From Diploptera punctata (taxonomy: Eukaryota; Arthropoda; Insecta; Blattodea; Blaberidae), in contig JASPKZ010007430.1 in assembly GCA_030220185.1 (NCBI GenBank), positions 124,001 through 188,000 of the forward strand: DNA of 64,000 bases, read 5' to 3'. Positions within the stretch are counted from its first letter, which is position 1, and each line of letters starts with the position of its first letter. The notes under the pieces were generated by a model. The model was not told the DNA's origin and did no database searches. It saw only the letters and a list, made by a program, of their open reading frames with translations. Shown one piece after another: positions 5,666-59,140 of this stretch. The position numbers were made by a program, and so were the translations under genes.

Positions 5666-6732
5666 CTAGTGTACGTAGTACCAGGCCTTAGACAGTTTAA
5701 TACCTTCCTCTTTTCTGTTAATATTTTCCTTATGCTTGTGTATTTCTATAGCCTCTCGATATAATCTAGGGAAATAATAGGAAGTTGTGGCTAAAACTTG
5801 TGTATCATCGAATAGAATCTGGTGTCCATTCATAATGGCATGTTCTGCTACAGCCGATTTATCCATTTCTCCTTGTCTGCAGTTTCTTTTGTGTTCTGAT
5901 AAACGGGTGGCTATACTTCTTTTTGTGGTCCCTATGTATGGTTTACCACACGAACAAGGAAGTCGATATACGCCGCAAGTGGAGAGAGGTGGCCGAGGAT
6001 CCTTAGCTGAGCGAAGGCAGTCTTCTATTTTTCTTGTAGGTCTGTAAACTGTTCTTATGTTGTATTTTCGTAGGAGTTTTCCGATACGATCTGTGACTCT
6101 TTGTACATATGGTAAGTAGGCTATGCTGGTTGAGGGTGTGTTATCCATTCTGACGTGCTGTCTTCGTGGATGTATGGTTTGTCTTATTTCCTTGGATGTG
6201 TAGCCATTTTTCTGGAAACAATTGAACAGATGGTGTTGTTCTTGTTTAAGGTGTTGTGGTTGGCATAACTTAGTCGCTCTGTCGAACAGTGTCTTAATGA
6301 CACCTCGCTTTTGTCTTGGATGGTGGTTAGAGTCTTTGTGCAGATATCGGTCTGTGTGTGTAGGTTTTCTGTAAACTGTATGTTGAATTTCCCCATTGCC
6401 AGTCCTTATTATTTGAACATCCAGGAAAGGAAGTCTTCCATTATCTTCTTTTTCCATAGTGAACTGTATTTTGTGTGTTGTCTGCTGTTAAGGTGTTGAA
6501 GGAAACGTTCCAATTCTTCACTGCCATGTCTCCATACTACGAATGTGTCATCAACATAGCGAAACCAATGTTCTGGAGACTTGGGAGCTGTTTTTAGTGC
6601 TTCTGTTTCGAATTTCTCCATGAAAAAATTCGCTACTACTGGGCTTAGAGGACTGCCCATGGCTACTCCGTCGGTCTGTTCATAGTAGCTGTTGTTCCAT
6701 TGGAAGTAAGTAGTAGTTAGTACATGCCTGCA
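5666..6732 (-). pseudogene. Penelope-type reverse transcriptase/GIY-YIG endonuclease, partial
   Basis: Upstream, the frame shows the RT signatures MGSPLSPVVANFFME and RYVDDTFVVW (the YVDD catalytic box, near 6560-6575). About 60 residues later comes LPFLDVQI, then a thumb/linker region, and then a GIY-YIG domain with CGVYRLPCSCGKPYIGTTKR, H and N residues typical of the PLE endonuclease. The frame ends at 5666. A frameshift separates the RT part (6409-6660) from the rest (5666-6457) near an A run around 6450. The N-terminal half, including the first catalytic aspartate region, is missing. The family copies its RNA into a nick made by the GIY-YIG nuclease. This copy cannot be active. Confidence 0.9.
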
Positions 6733-10080: not shown

Positions 10081-10132
10081 TTTGGGAATTTTTACATTAT
10101 GAGGTTTTCATTACATTGTTGGTGTTTGTATT

Positions 10133-10620
10133 GTGTCTAGAATGGTGTAGTGGGCTGCAAACCAATGTACAGGGTCAGAGGTCCAGGGTTCAATTCCCAA
10201 TTCAGACGTTAATTTTTCTTTTCAAAAATAAATTTGTCCATGACTGGAACATCAAAATCTAAATACTAAATTATTCAAAAAATTCTCATTCGTCAAATCT
10301 ACTAGACAGACCTCATTTAATTCTTGATCCACCACATATATCTGCTGTAGCTTACTGGTCATGACTATTTGGATGTGTGTCTAGAATGGTGTAGTGGATT
10401 GCAAACCAATGTACAGGGTCAGAGGTCCAGGGTTCGATTCCCAATTCAGACGTTAATTTTTCTTTTCAAAAATAAATTTGTCCATGACTGGAACATCAAA
10501 ATCTAAATACTAAATTATTCAAAAAATTCTCATTCGTCAAATCTACTAGACAGACCTCATTTAATTCTTGATCCACCACATATATCTGCTGTAGCTTACT
10601 GGTCATGACTATTTGGATGA
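10133..10620 (+). repeat. Tandem duplication of a 244-bp SINE-bearing unit
   Basis: Two near-identical 244-bp units run in tandem. Each begins with a tRNA-like SINE (A-box-like GGTGTAGTGG, B box GGGTTCRATTCCC) and the tail TTTTTCTTTTCAAAAATAAA, followed by the same AT-rich sequence. The leader TTACATTATGAGGTTTTCAT lies just upstream at 10092-10111. Confidence 0.85.
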
Positions 10621-16855: not shown

Positions 16856-16893
16856 TGAATTATTAATGATAATGAAAATAATTATGCACTAAC

Positions 16894-17977
16894 CTGAGAC
16901 GTCTTGTGTGCGTTGGCAGTGTAAGTGATGTTCGATAATATCCCTGTTCCTCAGTATCATAATCCTGAGGTCGCCGATGAAGTGTCATAGTTTCCTGTGG
17001 CGAGGTAATGTTTGGCTCTTGATCCAAATAATATCTTGATCCATGTGTACTTTTACAGTTCTCACATTCGCTTCGATAATCATCATTATCATCGGGAGGA
17101 AGAGGAGGGGGGAGACATTGATAAGAGCAACTACACGCAGAACTGTCTAATGAATTCTTATTCAGATCATTGAGTTTTGGATTGCTAAGTCTTGTGGTGT
17201 CTTGTTTAGCCACAGCACCTTCTGAGACGGACACAGATTGCAAGGATGGGTTAGTATCGCCATTTGGAACTTCCGGTGGTGGAATATTTACACAAGTTTT
17301 ACTCTTACCAGGGACGGCAGTTACACTGGGATTGAAACATTCAACTGGTGACAAAGAAGAAGGAGGACCAATGAGAACATCTTCATAAAATGCATCAGAA
17401 CGAATCGCAGCAACAGCTCCTTCTTCCTCTGCTGTCATTGGCAGAGGCGAAGGTATGTCCATTATCCTTGAAGAACGTCTGGATTCGACTGGTGGTATAG
17501 ATTCTAAAACAATGTCAGCTGATCTCGATCTAGAAGGTTCTGTTGCTTCTGCCGAACGGTGTTCCCTTCCCAGAGTAGAACTTGTAGGTTCAATGCGGAA
17601 ACTTCCACTAGTAGCCAAATTGATAGGAATAGTCCTATGTCCAGTACCAGTGTTCATCAATGTAGCACTTCCACTCCCCCCACCGCCACTAACATTATTC
17701 GATGAAGCTACAGCAGCAGCCAAAGCTGCTTCTGCACGTGCAGCAGCTACAGCTTCTTCGTAAGGAGGTGGAGCTTCACCACGAGGAAAATAATTGCCTG
17801 GGGGTTTCCATAATGGATAATGTGCAGGAGGTTCCTCATAATGAAATTCTATATGATGATCCTGGCTACCTGCTCCCAGGTATCCCATACTGCCTGGTAA
17901 GTAGGCCAAGCTCCCAGCTATGTAACCAATACTACCAAGACTTCGTTCATCTTCACTCAACTGACGATTCTGTCGAC
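16894..17977 (-). CDS. DGCR2: DGCR2/IDD-like membrane protein, cytoplasmic exon
   Basis: This exon opens after TTGTTGCAG and encodes about 361 residues of the intracellular tail. It starts RQNRQLSEDERS and continues through GSIGYIAGS, an EFHYEEPPAHYP block and a PPxY motif (EAPPPYEEA, about residue 85 of the exon). An alanine-rich run and a serine-rich, low-complexity remainder follow. The entry phase (one base from the previous exon) matches the 205-bp exon at 25747-25951. A good donor, CTCAG then GTTAGT, ends the exon at 16894 in phase 2. If unspliced, the frame stops at 16863-16865 after ten more codons. PPxY motifs bind WW domains of Nedd4-type ligases in this and similar proteins. The final exon, if one exists, was not located. 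The open frame above 17977 is intron read-through. Confidence 0.8.
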
Positions 17978-18870
17978 CTGCAACAACATTAGTTATTTGC
18001 TTTACAAGAATTGAAAATGAGGTTTCATGCTTAGGCCAGAATTTCACAACAAATTCATAAAATAATGTCAATCTTTGCAACAAACATAATTGTATTTCAT
18101 ACTAGGTTGAATTTAATTATGTGAATAAGCAAATAAAAATATTAATAGGCACTGCTAATGATGATAGAAAAACATGCTCGTTACTTAGCCATCCCTCTGC
18201 AGAAGCTGTTGTAAGGAGGAAAACTTGGATGAAAATATATTAAAAAAACATAATGAAGCGATGGGAAAATTAATAAGCACATCCTAATAAATACAAGAAA
18301 AATAGTAGCAGTAATTTCGTCCATGGAAAACAGCAAATGATACAAAATGAGTTAACGAGAAGGTTATGTTAGCACATTAGATTTAGTAAGCATTATAGTT
18401 TTGCAGTTTGAATTTTAATTTATGTATACATATTTCGGTTGCTGAGAAATGATCCAAGCAGATAATTTTTTTTTAGATTCTATAAGCTGAAAGTAACTAG
18501 CGTGTGACTTCCAACAGTTGACAAAGCAGCATTTCATTGATTCATGTGATGGACAATGTTAATTGCATAATAAATATAAACCTGATACAGGCCTAAAATA
18601 TTTTATAATTTTCTAGTGTTTTATTCTAAAATTTTCAAATAATAAAGCATTACAAATTAATTTACTTTTTATATAATTTATATCACATATGTTTCTTAAT
18701 GTGATGCATTGTTGGACTGCCTTTTGAATTTCACAGATGCCAGCATGAATTGGGATTTTGCCTTGATATGGTAGGGAAGAATTTGTGAGCTGTCAACTCA
18801 TGAATGAGAGTCTGCAGAGAACTTTGTTCTGGAGACTTCGACTCAGTGCCAAGAATGTTCTCTACCCTTG
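17978..18870. other. Intron of the DGCR2-like gene, no element recognised
   Basis: AT-rich intronic sequence without a convincing transposon or RNA gene. Confidence 0.4.
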
Positions 18871-51377: not shown

Positions 51378-53248
51378 ATGGCAAGCAGCATGTCTCATAA
51401 TAATAATTTGCATGATTTAATGATGGATGTGGTAGAGGAAAACCAAAAATCATACGAAATCTGGGCGGAGGTACTCAGGGAATTTGAGGAACTTATAGAT
51501 AGGGCCAATCTTAATGAGAATTCACCTCACTTACAAACAGCCTCTGAAATACGAGGACAAATTATAATCATAATGTCCTGGATACCTTCCCCAAATTCGC
51601 TGGTTCCTCACTGGCTGAAGACATTGCCCTGCAGTGCATGAATCAAATAGATGAGTTACAAGTGGCAACACGTGACCTGAGCTACTATTTAGAGACTGAC
51701 TAGTATAGTTCAGGATACGTTTAAAGAAATTCAGGATGAATGTCTAAGTAAAAAAGGAAAAGACAAGAAAATCAAAAGACCTTCCGTCTAGTAACGAAAC
51801 AAAGAAATCCGCGGAGAATTCAAAAGACTTTCCGTCTCTTAGCGAAAGTAAACATACACAGAAAAGGAAAAATACACAGAAATTGAGAGAATCCAAAATG
51901 CCACGGCAAACAACAGCCAGCGAGGACACTCTTCAGCTCGAGTTGTTCAACAAATTTGCAATTCTGGCTAATGAAGAGATGAACTCGGTTTCCTCTACTC
52001 GCAGTGTGCCAGGTAAGGGAAAGCCAGCTCAGAAGCAAAGTAAGGTGAGTGACAAAGAAATCAAAAGAGAAACCATCCACAGACATAAATACACAAAGAA
52101 CAGAAAACCAATTACAGACAATGCATATGGACAATGGTCCATCCACCAAGGAGAAACCATCCACATGCAATTCACAAACAGCTAACTCACACGAAGAGTC
52201 ACCAGTACCTGGGCCTTCAAATACTAATACAAATGTCAATTCTAATTCCAAAAGAGGTCCTAGGCCACCTCCAATTACACTGATAGGCCATACCGACCTT
52301 GTTAAAATATACAAATCACTGAAAGCACTTATATCAAATGGCATCAAAGTAGTGAACACTAAGGAAGGTCTCAGGTACTACACCACCACAGAGTTCGAAG
52401 TTTCTCTATGCTACACCACAACCAAAGAAGATCATAGTACTGTAACGCGATACTTTGACTCTATTAGAAGGCAATATTATACCTTCCAATATAAAACGGA
52501 TCAACCTCTGAGGGTAATGCTGAAAAGGCTTCCCTCCAATGTCGATACCGACGACATAAAAAGTGAACTCATGGAACTAGAATATGAAGTTCACAGTGTC
52601 AAACAGATATCCAAAAAAAAAAAATGAAGATAAAACCGTCCACAGATTTCCTTTATACGCAATCGAACTCACAAATAACGAAAAATCAAAACAGATGTAT
52701 CATCTTGATAAACTGTACAGTACAGTGATCTCCTTTGAACCATACCGTCCTCGCTCTGGCCTCAAGTAATGCTTCCAGTTCCAGAAATTCAACCACACTT
52801 TTGCTGGTTGTAAACTTACACCCAAATGTGTTATATGTGCAAAAGAACACAGCCATAAGAATTGTCCAATTCGGGAAGAAGCACGCCCCGATTCCTCCCT
52901 ACTAAAGTGTGCTAATTGTGGAGAAATAGGTCATCCTGCTTCATACAGGAAATGCCCCAAGTATAAGGAGGCCAATCAGGCATACCTGAGAAGCAGGCAA
53001 CCCAAACAGGAAAAAACTACAACTGCAGGCACCTTTAATTCCCATAAAATCAATCCAACAACTGCACGCACCTTTAATTCCCATAAAATCAATCCATAAT
53101 TGCTTCGGCCCAAGCACAAGGAAGCACAATGGCTACACCCAACCTGCAAACTCTGGCACACAGCATGGCCCCCATGCTGAATGCTATTAAAAACCCAATG
53201 GAACGTATGATGTTCCTAACACAAATGTTATGTTTCAGCGATGTATAA
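51378..53248 (+). pseudogene. Jockey ORF1 (gag-like, zinc knuckles)
   Basis: It starts MASSMSHNNNLHDLMMDVVE with an N-terminal coiled-coil-like segment. After several frame changes comes a basic, Ser/Pro-rich middle and a GPRPPPITLIGHTD to YYTF(Q)YKT region (52260-52500) typical of the Jockey ORF1 RNA-binding fold. Three zinc knuckles follow near 52770-52975 (C-x2-C-x4-H-x4-C; the last two visible as CVICAKEHSHKNC and CANCGEIGHPASYRKC). The stop overlaps the ORF2 start, a Jockey arrangement that allows reinitiation. Breaks lie near 51585, 51880 and the A run at 52613-52623. Confidence 0.8.
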
Positions 53249-55889
53249 ACACGTTGAGGGACACTTTCTTCATGTCATGGCATTTAATGCCAACGGAATT
53301 GGCTCTCAGATCCATGAACTGGACATTGTACTTCATACACACATTGACATACTCCTAATCAGCGAGACGCATCTGAAACCAAAGGATAAATTCCGACTCC
53401 CTGATTATTACATATATCGCACAGACCGCATTAATGGACCCCTTGGTGGTACAGCAATCTGTATTAAAAAGTCCATCTCACATAGACACATTTCTGTCCC
53501 AGGGCTACATTTCATTGAAGCCACTGGCATTATTCTTCCTATAGCACAACACTTAAACATATTCATAGCTTCAATATACAAATCACCACTCAGACCATTC
53601 ACGCGACATGACATGCGCATCCTTACATCGTTCTCGCCCCGGTACCTACTGGCAGGCGATTTCAATGCTAAGCATCGCGCGTGGAACTGTCGAGTACACA
53701 ACGCTTCTGGTATGGTTTTACAAACCTTCTGTAACAACCATAACATAGAAATTTCAGTACCAAGGGAACACACCTTCTTTCGTAACACACAGCAAGGCCT
53801 ATGCTCCGATATCCTGGATATTGCACTATCCAAAAATATCGACATCTCTCCACAAATAGACACATTACCTGGTGAGCTCAACTCAGATCATGTCCCCATC
53901 ACCTTTAAACTCACCACTAGGTTCTTACTTCAGCCCCCATTCCGGCCTCACACAACGAATACAGACTGGAATCAATATTCAAGACTCCTTTCGCAGTGGA
54001 TTAATCCTCGCCTGAGAATCAACTCCACTGAAGAACTGGAGACTTCCATAAATGACTTCCAGGCTTCTATTCAAACCGCACTTGACACAGCCACGCAACA
54101 ACGCTACAAGTCCTACACAAACAGATCAGACTCTTCTTGACCTCCTGGACCATAAGCGGAGAGCCCTCAAACAGTAGAGACTCTATGGAGCACCTCAAAC
54201 AAAGCAGGAGTACAATTGCTTTGCCCGACTGGTCAAAGAACGACTTGCAAGATCACAAAATTACGCAATGGGAAAATTCCCTGGCTAACTTTAATGCTAA
54301 AAAGTCCCCACCTTGGGAGATTATAAAAAGAATAAAGTCAAACCGCGGACCTTCTAAACCGACTGCAATTCAGAATAATGGAACTTGGGCTTATCATCCT
54401 TACGATCAAGCACAAGTTCTCGCGGAAAATCTTGCAGACCGATTCAGACCACAAGAGCTAACGACGCCAGTTCACGAAGCTGAAGTCAATGGCAGAGTAG
54501 ACACCGTTCTAGCTGCTCCCATCCCTAATGAAAGACCCAATATCCACCTAGCTGACCTACGCTCTCATGTCCAAGCTCTTCGCACTACAAGTGCACCAGG
54601 ACATGCTCGTATCAGTAACCAAGCCATAAAGCATCTACCGCGCAAAGCGCTACTTCGACTCCTTACCATATTTAAATCCTGCATACAACTTAACCATTTC
54701 CCTGCAGCTTGGAAGATGGCTAAAGTTATTGTATTACCGAAACCAGGTAAAAATCGAAACAATCCAGACAATTTGCGTCCAATAAGCCTCCTGCCAGTTC
54801 TAGGAAAAATCCTAGAAAAACTTATTTTGGCAAGACTCAAAATTGAAGTTACAAACAAGGAATTAATTCCTAACCACCAATTAGGATTTAGAAATTCACA
54901 CAGCACACCGCTGCAACTGGCCAGGCTTATAGACCAAATTGTCACTGGTTTCAACGCCAAGCGTAGTACATTAGTAGTCTTCCTTGACATTGAGAAAGCG
55001 TTTGGCACAACTTGGATAAACGGATTGATATACAAGCTAATACAATTCCAAATTAATCCAAATTTAGTCAAAATTATCTCCACTTATCTGAGAAATAGAA
55101 CTTTCTACGTCTCAGTAAATGGCAGCAAATCTGACATGAAGTCACTGGTGGAAGTTCCACAAGGAGCTGTCCTCTCACCCTTATTGTACTCACTATATGT
55201 CTCGGACCTTCCTTCACCTCCATCAATCCAAATAGCCTCCTTTGCTGATGACACTTGTCTCTTCATGCAATCCAAACTCAAATCCATTCCTCACAGACTT
55301 GCAACGTTCCAGCGAGCAATAAACATCATATATGAATGGTTTTGTTCCTGGAACATTAAACTTAATGCAAACAAAACACAAGTCGTCCTGTTCGCCAAAT
55401 CAAACTTTCCCTGTCCAATTCAGCTCACTATGGGTGTGCAACTCCTACCAGTACAAATATCTAGGCCTAATATTGGATAAAAGATTCACACTAAGAGCTC
55501 ATATCGACTACATCACTTTTAAAGATCCGTTTTTCAAGTCGCCGTCTCTGTCCCGAAGGATCAAGGTCACTCTATATGTGGCCGTGATCCGTAGTATGCT
55601 ATTGTACGGCTGCGAATCTCTGAGTATCCTTGCGAAATGTCACAAAAAGAAACTTCAGATATTACAGAACAAATGTCTCAAAATTATACTTTCGGCACCG
55701 CGTTACACAAGGATAACGGAGATGCACGAGGTCACGAAGGTACCACATATTGATATTATCATAACTGAAAGGGCTACAACCATGCTCCGAAATATAAATG
55801 ATCATGGGAATCCTATAGTACGCAATGTAGGACACCTTCCACAATGGCGTACTACACATAGAAACATATTCGACACATTAAACCACCCA
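53241..55889 (+). pseudogene. Jockey ORF2: APE endonuclease and reverse transcriptase
   Basis: The endonuclease domain (53241-53925) shows FNANGIGSQIHEL, LLISETHLKP (catalytic E), IASIYKSPLR, LLAGDFNAKHRAW (D and N) and LNSDHVPITF (SDH). The reverse transcriptase shows AKVIVLPKPGKN, LRPISLLPVLGKILEKL, GFRNSHSTPLQL, VFLDIEKAFGTTW (first aspartate), VPQGAVLSPLLYSLY and ASFADDTCLF (catalytic FADD near 55240). A C-terminal part contains YKYLGLILDKRF and ends at 55889. The frame shifts at about 54137 and again at about 55470. Apart from these two breaks it is well preserved. Confidence 0.9.
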
Positions 55890-56190
55890 TAGTATTCAGC
55901 ATGAAATAACCAAAATCAGAGAGGTCAGCGCAGATTGGCGTGGCTCAATCCGGTCCTGAAAGTTATCAGCGACACGGTTTCCGATGCCCCAATCAAGCGA
56001 GATCTATCTGCCTTGGAATCAAATATCCACATTATATCAATAGCACATGCTAAAATAGAATCAATCCCCATAAAACCGCCGTATAGGCTAGGGCAAAACA
56101 GCGAAACCCAATACACACCTATGCGAATTCGCCGTCAAGGGACAAACAACAGTCCCAGAAAAAGGCACACTGGACAGCACCAATAGCTGT

Positions 56191-56224
56191 CAACAACTGA
56201 CTGACTGACTGACTGACTGACTGA
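56191..56224 (+). repeat. (CTGA)n LINE tail
   Basis: About eight CTGA units form the 3' end of the Jockey element. Confidence 0.95.
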
Positions 56225-56290
56225 CTGTTGTTCTATAGGACTTTTTACGCAAGTTCAAGTGCAGATTTTCCCACGTTTGTCTTCAATTTA

Positions 56291-57480
56291 AAAGCTGACA
56301 GAAATAATTTCACACTAATAAAAAATAAATTCATACTAACTTCAGATGTTTTTTGTTAAGCGTTAGTTATTAGTGAGATCATATTTTGGTTAGGTTTTAA
56401 TATCGCACATATTTCAAATATTTCAGTTTTTCTTCACACCAATTAATGCATTCTGTGGAATCTAGATAATATCAAATAAGGTTTATAAAAACATTACATT
56501 CTAAAGGTGGCTAAGGCATGATTGTATAGATCCGAAGATCCAAGGTTCTAGTTTCGCCGAAATCCATAATAAGTACTAATGCAATTTATAATATGTAGTG
56601 AAGTAGTTTGGATTGCATAGAATTGTAGAAGTAGAATTGAGATAGATATGGAATAGAAAATAGGATAAAGGACAAAGAGAAGAAAGGAAGACAGGAGGAG
56701 ATAAAGAGAGAGAGAGACATCTAGTATCAAAGAATAGTTTTTTTTCCACCAATGAACTAGTTAAATGATCGAGAATGATGAACTAATCCAGTTATAGTTA
56801 ATTTATTATTTAATCATTCATACAACGTTTCTTGGTAATTACCTAAAAAAATTCTGCTTGTCGACAAAAACTAGCACTAGCACCTGAAAATATGGAGAAA
56901 TATATTGTCGGTTACTGTGTTTCATGCCATGATAAATTTTAGTGCAGTACCTAATCTGATGGAACATTGTATATAGGACCTCTGTATGCAATTTGTGTAA
57001 AATAATGTTTTCACCTTTTTACTTACATAAAAGCATTTTAAAAACTTGTAATCGTTTGGGAGAATGATGAAATTCAAGTTTCCGCCATTAGAATAAACAA
57101 AACATTGTTAACATATCTTTTAATAAACATATTTGATATACTGTACTACATACAATTTTAGGTCTCTGCTTACAGGTGATGAAAGTCAGTTTTTACGCTT
57201 CGTGGCTTAATTATGCTTAACTATTTTTCTGTTAAAAACCTAAACCAACAAATTTTGGGTCGCGAACCTTAAGTTCTTACGGAATTCGATTAATAGCCTC
57301 AACAAACTCCAGAGGCACGGTCTATGCCAACAACTAAATCTAAACATATACCCGCATATACCTTGATCTATGCATATACAAGTTTCTCTATGGCATATAC
57401 TACAGACAGGCACTCGCAAATATCGATTTTAAGGTACAAACCTAAAAATCGAACCCAAAAATGAAATAGAAAAGTTTATG
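56291..57480. other. AT-rich stretch
   Basis: A degraded tRNA-like SINE piece (AGGTGGCTAAGGCATGATTG ... AAGGTTCTAGTTTCGCC) lies at 56504-56562 and a (GA)-rich tract at 56670-56720. Nothing else is recognised. Confidence 0.4.
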
Positions 57481-57604
57481 TAGTGACATCTAGGCCCTGC
57501 CATCCACCCCTTGGGATACCTCGGTCGTCATGACCATACTCCCAAGTCCTAGTTCTAGTCCTCCCTAATCTAAATCTCGCGTCCACGTTCAAGTCTCACG
57601 GTCC

Positions 57605-57637
57605 TATAAAACCAACACTCCAGGGAGAGAGTGTTGG
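57605..57637 (+). promoter_or_regulatory. TATA-like box and 9-bp hairpin before the GC-rich array
   Basis: CCTATAAAACC is followed at once by a perfect 9-bp stem CCAACACTC/GAGTGTTGG (57612-57620, 57629-57637; loop CAGGGAGA). The position, just upstream of the array, is suggestive, but a promoter function is a guess. Confidence 0.3.
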
Positions 57638-57654
57638 AGTTTTGCAGTTCTTGG

Positions 57655-58905
57655 GCAATTGATGAGCTACATAGTACATCAGGTCGCTCAATCCTGACGA
57701 CCCCACAGTTGGTCCACGGGCTCCATGAGCCTAGCCGGGAGGACTGCTGTCGCAGATCCACCGACCATTCCCCTGTTCTTGCCTCCAGGGACGTGTCCTG
57801 CAGCCGTTGTGAGACCGGCTAGGGCTACAAGCCCAACAGTGTGAGACTTTTAGTACATCCAGGTGCTCATCTCCTGGCGACCCCACAGTTTGTCGACGGG
57901 CCCGTAGGCCGAGCCAGGAACCAGTACAGTTGCTCCCCTCTGCACTGGTCCGAGCCGAGCCCTGGTGTGCCCCCAGGGACGCCTTCTGCTGCTGTTGTGG
58001 GCCAGCACGGAGCTCGCAAGCTCCAACAGATGAGCAAATAGTACGACAAGGCGCTCAACTCTTGCCTACCCCACTAATGGTTCACGAGTCACTTGGACTT
58101 AACCGGGAGGACTGTCTAGCAGATCCACCGATCTTTCCCCCAGTGCACCAGCTGGGGACGTGTTTGGTTGCTGAAGTGGGTCCAGCCTGAAGCTTTTAGT
58201 ACATCAGGTCGCTCAACTCCTGACGACCTCACAGATTGTCCTTGGGTCACTCGGTTCCAGAGTCGGCGCTAAGTCTCCGACGACAAAAGACCGCGCTTCC
58301 TCCTTTCCCGAGCTTATTGACCTGGTGGTAATTCCCAGCATTACGCCCGGTATTGTCCCATCCAGCCCGTTCGCAAGACTAAGCCTAGTCGGTGTAGCTG
58401 CTGTGAGGCAGCCCACTGAGCAATGTAGGCATCCAGGGTGCTCATCTCCCATGGTGCCCCCACAGATGGTCTCAGGTTCAATGAACCAAGAGAGAAGGAG
58501 CGCCAGATCCCCTACTCTCCCACCGCCACGCCAACAGGGGCACATGCCCCCGCTGTGGGCCGGGATAGTTCAGGCTTGACAGCAGGCCCCTATAACCAAT
58601 ACAAATTTTACTGCTGACCCCACTCATGGTCCGCGAGTCCATCGGACTTGGAAGGGAGGACTGACTAGCAGATCCACCGACCTTTTCCCCCACTACGCCA
58701 CCGAGGGGACGCGTTTTGCTGCTGGAGTGGGCGCAGCACGAGCTAAATAGTACGTCAGGTCGCTCGAGTCCTGACGACCCCACAAATGGCCCGCGGGTCC
58801 GGTCCGGACCTAGCCGGGAGGAATGCAAGCAAACCACCGACCGTTCCCCTATCCGCCGCCCGGGGACGCGCCCTGTTGCTGTTGTGAGCACAGCTGGGGC
58901 CCGAT
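57655..58905 (+). repeat. GC-rich tandem array with covarying hairpins
   Basis: About seven diverged units of 150-225 bp start near 57673, 57851, 58039, 58197, 58423, 58593 and 58748. The consensus has TAGTACRTCAGG, GACGACCCCACAG, GCCGGGAGGACTG, GCAGATCCACCGACC, GGGGACG and TGYTGTTGTGGGC blocks. Most units can form four small hairpins (P1-P4). P2 stems are GGGCTC/GAGCCT (57718), GGCC/GGCC (57899), GAGTC/GACTT (58086), GGTTC/GAACC (58475), GAGTCC/GGACTT (58635) and GGGTCC/GGACCT (58795), in matching places with different sequences. P1, P3 and P4 vary likewise. Several open frames cross it on both strands but none persists across units. I know no family with this design. The composition contrasts sharply with the AT-rich surroundings. 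Confidence 0.75.
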
Positions 58906-59140
58906 AAACGGACCCCCAGGGAGTTTATGTAGACAATATAGTAATGGAATTATACGATAGCTATCATGTATTACACATCCAAGTTCACGGGCGGAGGGGA
59001 AGAGTTTTAGCGCTAGTGTCGCCGATCTACTGAATCTGTGGAAGGGATGTAGGAGAAAACTGTACATCCAATCACGCATTGAAAATTTTCAACTTCTAAT
59101 GTGGGGGAGAATCTCTGAAGACGTGTGAAAGTTCTTAACA
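58906..59140. other. Flank of the GC-rich array
   Basis: The array ends at GACCCCCAGGGAG. Ordinary sequence without genes follows. Confidence 0.35.

Follow-up and report, generated by a model that had tools for sequence, protein, structure and literature searches.

The insertion and its surroundings

The window analysed here is a stretch of 64,000 nucleotides of contig JASPKZ010007430.1 from the 3.12-Gb assembly of the blaberid cockroach Diploptera punctata. Its strongest GC-rich segment (57493-58923, score 184; the runner-up scores 35) corresponds to a full-length non-coding retroposon of about 1436 bp at 57486-58921 on the minus strand, with the 5' end of the RNA near 58921 and the 3' end near 57486. 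These limits are drawn from the ends common to 20 fetched copies and from a left end that is fixed and a right end that is variable in 72. The initial annotation had placed a tandem array at 57655..58905. Seven diverged tandem units are indeed present at 57664-58905, but they are the body of a 1.44-kb dispersed non-coding retroposon and not a local array of non-coding RNA, and the feature in its full extent is longer, with a target-site duplication of 11 bp on its two sides (left copy AGTTTATGTAG at 57473-57483, right copy at 58922-58932). This duplication is the sole word of at least 8 bases common to the flanks scanned; words of at least 11 bases were in common in 14 of 2000 random site pairs.

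Read along the minus-strand RNA, the element begins with a predicted 5'-terminal hairpin (58894-58919). The modules follow in the order U7 (58740-58905, delimited by alignment A2 and the consensus fold), U6 (58590-58739), in which hairpin P1 is lost, U5 (58421-58589), U4 (58189-58424), which carries an insertion of some 65 nt and is the longest, U3 (58030-58188), U2 (57843-58029) and U1 (57664-57842). The RNA closes with a 3' tail of about 178 nt (57486-57663), for which sequence and fold indicate a strong predicted hairpin, a terminal UGU and no poly-A run. The seven units measure 150-236 bases each and are 70-78% identical over the longer stretches aligned by BLAST; Tandem Repeats Finder did not report them.

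No conserved protein, which would have spoken against the structured-RNA reading of the initial annotation, was found in the frames tested. The longest stop-to-stop frame of the element has 148 aa and lacks a homologue up to an E-value of 1, and none of the 7 frames tested matched Pfam, so that a coding repeat was rejected. A known RNA family was likewise rejected, only sub-threshold chance matches being obtained: searching Rfam for a head of the tRNA, 7SL or 5S type gave nothing in the element (E up to 10) or in four relatives (E up to 5), and neither a hammerhead nor any other Rfam ribozyme matched the element or its relatives. A pair of RNA polymerase III A and B boxes is absent, the minus strand having one A-box-like site and no B box, and the plus strand one B-box-like site and no A box. 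An origin from phage or bacteria was also discarded, since the sole matches, one in Pseudonocardia and one of 18 bases that does not extend, are due to chance.

Several other features were noted in the window. Upstream of the retroposon, a jockey/X-element-like LINE with endonuclease and reverse-transcriptase domains lies on the plus strand at 53241-55892; an (ACTG)8 run at 56196-56227 may be its tail, and its end is unlike that of the retroposon. On the minus strand, a 263-aa frame at 5666-6457 looks by eye like the terminal part of a GIY-YIG-type Penelope-like element, and a 406-aa frame at 16863-18083, with a PPPY motif and in a GC-richer stretch, is possibly a host-gene exon; neither has a Pfam match. 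A 244-bp unit found twice at 98% identity (10125-10619) looks like a duplicated tRNA-type SINE, and four tRNA-like Rfam matches in the window lie away from it. COX1 from the assembly shows 98% identity to blaberid cockroaches such as Macropanesthia, Geoscapheus, Rhabdoblatta and Gromphadorhina. The assembly as a whole contains 98 matches to COX1, many of which are short fragments; since these retain mitochondrial TGA codons, their sequences suggest many nuclear copies of mitochondrial DNA.

Genomic copies, their ends and the strand of the RNA

A search of the cockroach's own genome with the element gave 40 scored matches of 95-100% identity, the window copy among them, and 37 of the 40 cover nearly the whole query. 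A 17-mer close to the left end has 2824 exact matches in the assembly and a 24-mer close to the right end has 1126, against 0 for either reversed control; other loci, on which the reading of the initial annotation depended, are thus abundant. All 72 places read for the left-end 17-mer are copies of the retroposon; they were taken in list order and not at random from 100 listed places (of the 2824 in total), 28 being left out. With identical sequences entered once, the copies diverge from their majority by about 2-13% and an older relative (L052) by 23%, and the family therefore likely combines a long history with recent activity. At four places (L062, L063, L052 and L025) copies of the element stand head to tail or directly adjoin an older copy, and both copies in L062 have an identical target word.

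In all 20 fetched copies the similarity to the window has its left limit at 57482-57487 and its right limit at 58918-58927. A common word of at least 9 bases was found at the ends of 19 of the 21 sites, the window included, although one of the 19 (L017) is out of place. Counting only full copies with a duplication of at least 9 bp near the end, and identical left flanks once, we obtained 42 copies with target-site duplications of 9-20 bp, of which 26 measure 14-15 bp. A DNA transposon was rejected in view of this variable length and of the two inverted pairs in the sequence, neither of which joins the ends of the element; the ends were also compared by eye.

The two ends differ in how they are preserved. 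The left end is retained in 71 of the 72 copies; the right end is full in 34, which terminate at 58916-58921, and is lost at scattered points in 38. Internal rearrangement, and not truncation, accounts for at least two of these 38, L065 and one of the copies in L063 (the second). Because this sample was picked by a left-end word, the place lists of both ends were compared reciprocally over contigs C1-C44: 36 of the 42 right-end places have a left-end partner, versus 36 of 99 the other way. A duplication of 10-15 bp is present at the cut in nine of the 38 copies without the right end (L037, L044, L054, L064, L075, L083, L084, L089 and L090), but the other 29 have none of at least 9 bp there, which counts against our main reading.

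A fixed left end together with a variable right end amounts to 5' truncation, and the RNA intermediate is therefore read as the minus strand. Target-primed reverse transcription of such an RNA, with its 3' end near 57486, explains the pattern of ends. Targets reading ACA, which is complementary to the terminal UGU of the RNA, are in excess and were found at 20 of the 42 sites. Some targets are recurrent. Five copies (L051, L059, L079, L087 and L095) share an insertion point in one interspersed repeat, with the target AGTGG T/C TTTACTTCCC before ACA or TCA; two of them are full length and three are cut at different points, and L043 and L044 lie close by. Two further targets recur in three copies each (L013/L089/L096 and L015/L019/L071). 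These cases look like repeated insertion at hot sites, while some may be duplicated segments.

The minus strand is most likely also the strand that folds. The stems had initially been read on the plus strand; besides the truncation pattern, the consensus fold is stronger on the minus strand (z -5.9 to -7.2) than on the plus strand (z -3.8 to -5.3) in identical alignments. It is very unlikely that the folded and retrotransposed RNA is instead the plus strand: its consensus fold is significant as well and some wobbles are compatible with the plus strand only, but the variable end would then become the 3' end, the opposite of LINE-type copying, and the match of ACA to UGU sits at the 3' end of the minus strand. 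Overall wobble counts (30 G-U against 6 A-C on the minus strand, 24 against 4 on the plus strand, each in the strand's own consensus) do not settle the matter, because each strand's own consensus fold favours itself.

In three features, variable-length duplications, a fixed 3' end with 5' truncation and the lack of an encoded protein, the element agrees with a non-autonomous non-LTR retroposon, and its reverse transcriptase was likely borrowed from another element. Since two defining features of SINEs, the polymerase III boxes and a head derived from a known small RNA, were looked for and did not appear, we do not file the element as a SINE. Among the 72 places read, all of them the retroposon, there is no LINE that shares the tail 17-mer. 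Two very short copies were considered as partner LINEs and rejected by eye: no reverse-transcriptase frame was recognised alongside L034, and L055 appears inside the frame of another LINE. An unlikely alternative would make the sequence the 3' untranslated region of an autonomous LINE, with 58921 a strong stop of reverse transcriptase and not a true 5' end. The LINE-like truncation and duplications would agree with this, as would the strong hairpin predicted exactly at the 5' end; against it, 34 of the 72 copies end at 58916-58921 and, among the 20 fetched copies, none continues past 58927 in common with the window.

A fold shared by the seven modules

Every pair of arms that the initial annotation listed for hairpins P1, P2 and P4 was found in the sequence. 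Its P4 arms for U3 (GGTTG/CAGCC) do not line up with those of the other units, the stem in register being GCTG/CAGC, and its claim that loops and linkers are better conserved than stems is unsupported overall, mean column identity being 65.5% in the 70 paired columns versus 52.0% in the 84 unpaired ones.

The shared fold of the units is above chance. The units were aligned on sequence alone, in sets of seven, six or five, and the consensus energy was put to 20 tests, 10 for either strand; in none of them did any of the 200 column-shuffled alignments reach it. These shuffles preserve the gap pattern and coarse conservation. The minus-strand alignment A2 has 35 consensus pairs in six helices. 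Sixteen of the 35 pairs are altered on both sides and 86.3% of 240 cells hold standard pairs; the shuffles give 7.7 and 77.3%, and none of 500 came as high in either respect. When the partners are slid by one to three columns, pairing falls to 37-54%; this control is biased towards a structure built from its own alignment, as is the case here. The covariation that had been proposed from the stems alone thus survives column shuffles, which preserve relatedness. The count of further pair types is a weaker line of evidence. On the minus strand it stands out for seven units (0 of 200 shuffles as high); it shows no excess there for five units (29 and 31 of 200 as high), nor on the plus strand for fewer units (up to 91 of 200). 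Because single units are not unusually stable (z -1.75 to +0.79 versus dinucleotide shuffles), the evidence for the fold is covariation and not stability.

These tests contradict the idea of an ordinary GC-rich satellite, or of a decayed coding repeat, whose stems arose by chance. The units are tandem and GC-rich, as this idea would have it, but the seven-unit array recurs in dispersed form with the hallmarks of insertion, none of the 7 frames matches Pfam and no column shuffle reached the energy of the fold, so that we assign it next to no probability.

In all seven modules the P4 hairpin, its arms read by eye and checked, consists of standard pairs only. It lies at 57802-57820 in U1 and in the other modules at 57990-58007, 58170-58186, 58397-58412, 58549-58564, 58717-58738 and 58878-58894, always on the minus strand. 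The P4 loop is complementary to a strand that begins about 90-170 nt off in the same module, again in seven of seven; this strand occupies 57701-57708 in U1 and starts at 57881, 58069, 58227, 58458, 58618 and 58778 in the others (minus strand). Loop and partner strand form helix 1 of A2, in which 93.9% of cells are paired and which also covaries: the A-T pair that five modules have at one position is T-A in U3 and U6; the next position has four pair types across six of the seven modules on the plus strand and pairs in four of seven on the minus strand; and at another position the C-A mismatch of U1 and U7 on the plus strand becomes a G-U pair on the minus strand. Since P4 and the loop helix cannot both nest, the prediction is either a pseudoknot or a module that switches between two folds.

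Pairing is also kept among genomic copies. Over 55 sequences and 201 pairs, 76 cells are changed on both sides and still paired, the null averaging 7.2 and never reaching 76 in 500 trials; 8 double-changed cells are broken, and one-sided breaks number 224, versus 300 in the null. The 76 cells largely reflect a few events inherited by many copies. We therefore give distinct changes at Watson-Crick pairs separately: pairing on the minus strand is kept in 13 of the 21 that are shared by at least four copies, versus 33 of the 119 that are private to one copy (Fisher p 0.0044; changes found in 2 or 3 copies excluded). The oldest copy alone has a modest excess (5 versus 1.9, with 16 of 500 shuffles as high). 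Private changes are those expected from decay after insertion, and shared changes most likely passed through active copies. The comparison of copies suggests that selection in the active lineage has acted on the modules as folded RNA.

Of the initial annotation, the view of a repeated structured RNA is borne out by covariation in the seven units and the 55 genomic copies; the local multi-unit non-coding RNA and the single-strand DNA are not. The former would survive in modified form if the modules belonged to a host multi-unit non-coding RNA gene and the dispersed copies were its pseudogenes. Modules that covary without a coding frame would suit such a gene. We nevertheless regard it as highly improbable: thousands of copies have the same two ends, the copy in the window is an insertion with its own duplication, and the shared changes that retain pairing in many copies of different ages point to selection in the lineage that spreads.

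A putative mechanism and relation to known systems

The best explanation, which we consider very probable, is that the array makes up the body of a non-coding retroposon of 1.44 kb, present in thousands of copies, with a minus-strand RNA that is predicted to consist of seven pseudoknotted modules and a 3' tail and that is likely copied by a LINE reverse transcriptase in trans. The transcript would fold into the seven modules and the tail of about 178 nt with its strong hairpin. A LINE protein might recognise the tail and nick the target, leaving a primer that ends in ACA and could anneal to the UGU end of the RNA, and copying would then proceed toward the 5' end of the RNA, often halting early. 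The modules may be retained as folded RNA by helping transcription, stability, transport or capture; most likely they would act as protein-binding or RNA-protecting units, and of these we favour a putative role in protein docking.

More tentatively, the element might represent a new class of retroposon, a kilobase RNA free of protein and of promoter boxes, with seven fixed but diverged pseudoknotted domains. In that case the domains, and not just the tail, would be kept by selection in the active lineage, for example as a seven-fold docking platform that captures the LINE machine or a host protein. In the open-licence literature we recognised no description of such an element. The usual picture of a non-coding retroposon is a promoter head joined to a LINE-capturing tail; here most of the RNA is made up of seven related, predicted folded domains, in which pairing is kept more often by inherited than by private changes. 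The retroposon may serve as a natural experiment, run in thousands of copies, on which RNA structure a parasite needs to travel, and its modules provide a ready set of homologous RNA domains for studies of structure and binding.

The SVA retroposons of apes are composite and non-coding, have a GC-rich tandem part and are moved in trans by a LINE. The cockroach element resembles them in its composite, non-coding make-up and its GC-rich tandem part, and it is likely moved in trans by a LINE as well. Unlike SVA, no Alu-like part and no poly-A tail were seen in it, the number of modules is fixed in the full copies read, and the modules are mutually diverged with a conserved fold.

Within the same insect order, the SINEs of Blattodea (Sbg1-Sbg9 of Blattella, and Talua-Talud of termites, which are named in the same source) are described as carrying a tRNA head, A and B boxes and a tail of poly-A or short repeats, and Sbg9 as being dimeric (PMC9191728). 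They are non-coding retroposons with target-site duplications, as is the present element; set against these descriptions, it differs in lacking an A/B-box pair and any tRNA or other Rfam match, in its seven modules and in its length of 1.44 kb. Metazoan retrozymes are non-autonomous non-LTR elements whose repeated units carry RNA structure (PMC7229834). The retroposon shares this property and differs from them in having no match to a hammerhead or other Rfam ribozyme. The 3' tails of stringent-type LINEs are recognised via a stem-loop (PMC4176376). Unlike such tails, that of the retroposon was seen with no LINE among the 72 places read; like them, it is a fixed 3' tail without poly-A and with predicted hairpins, and it could be the handle by which a reverse transcriptase takes hold of the RNA.
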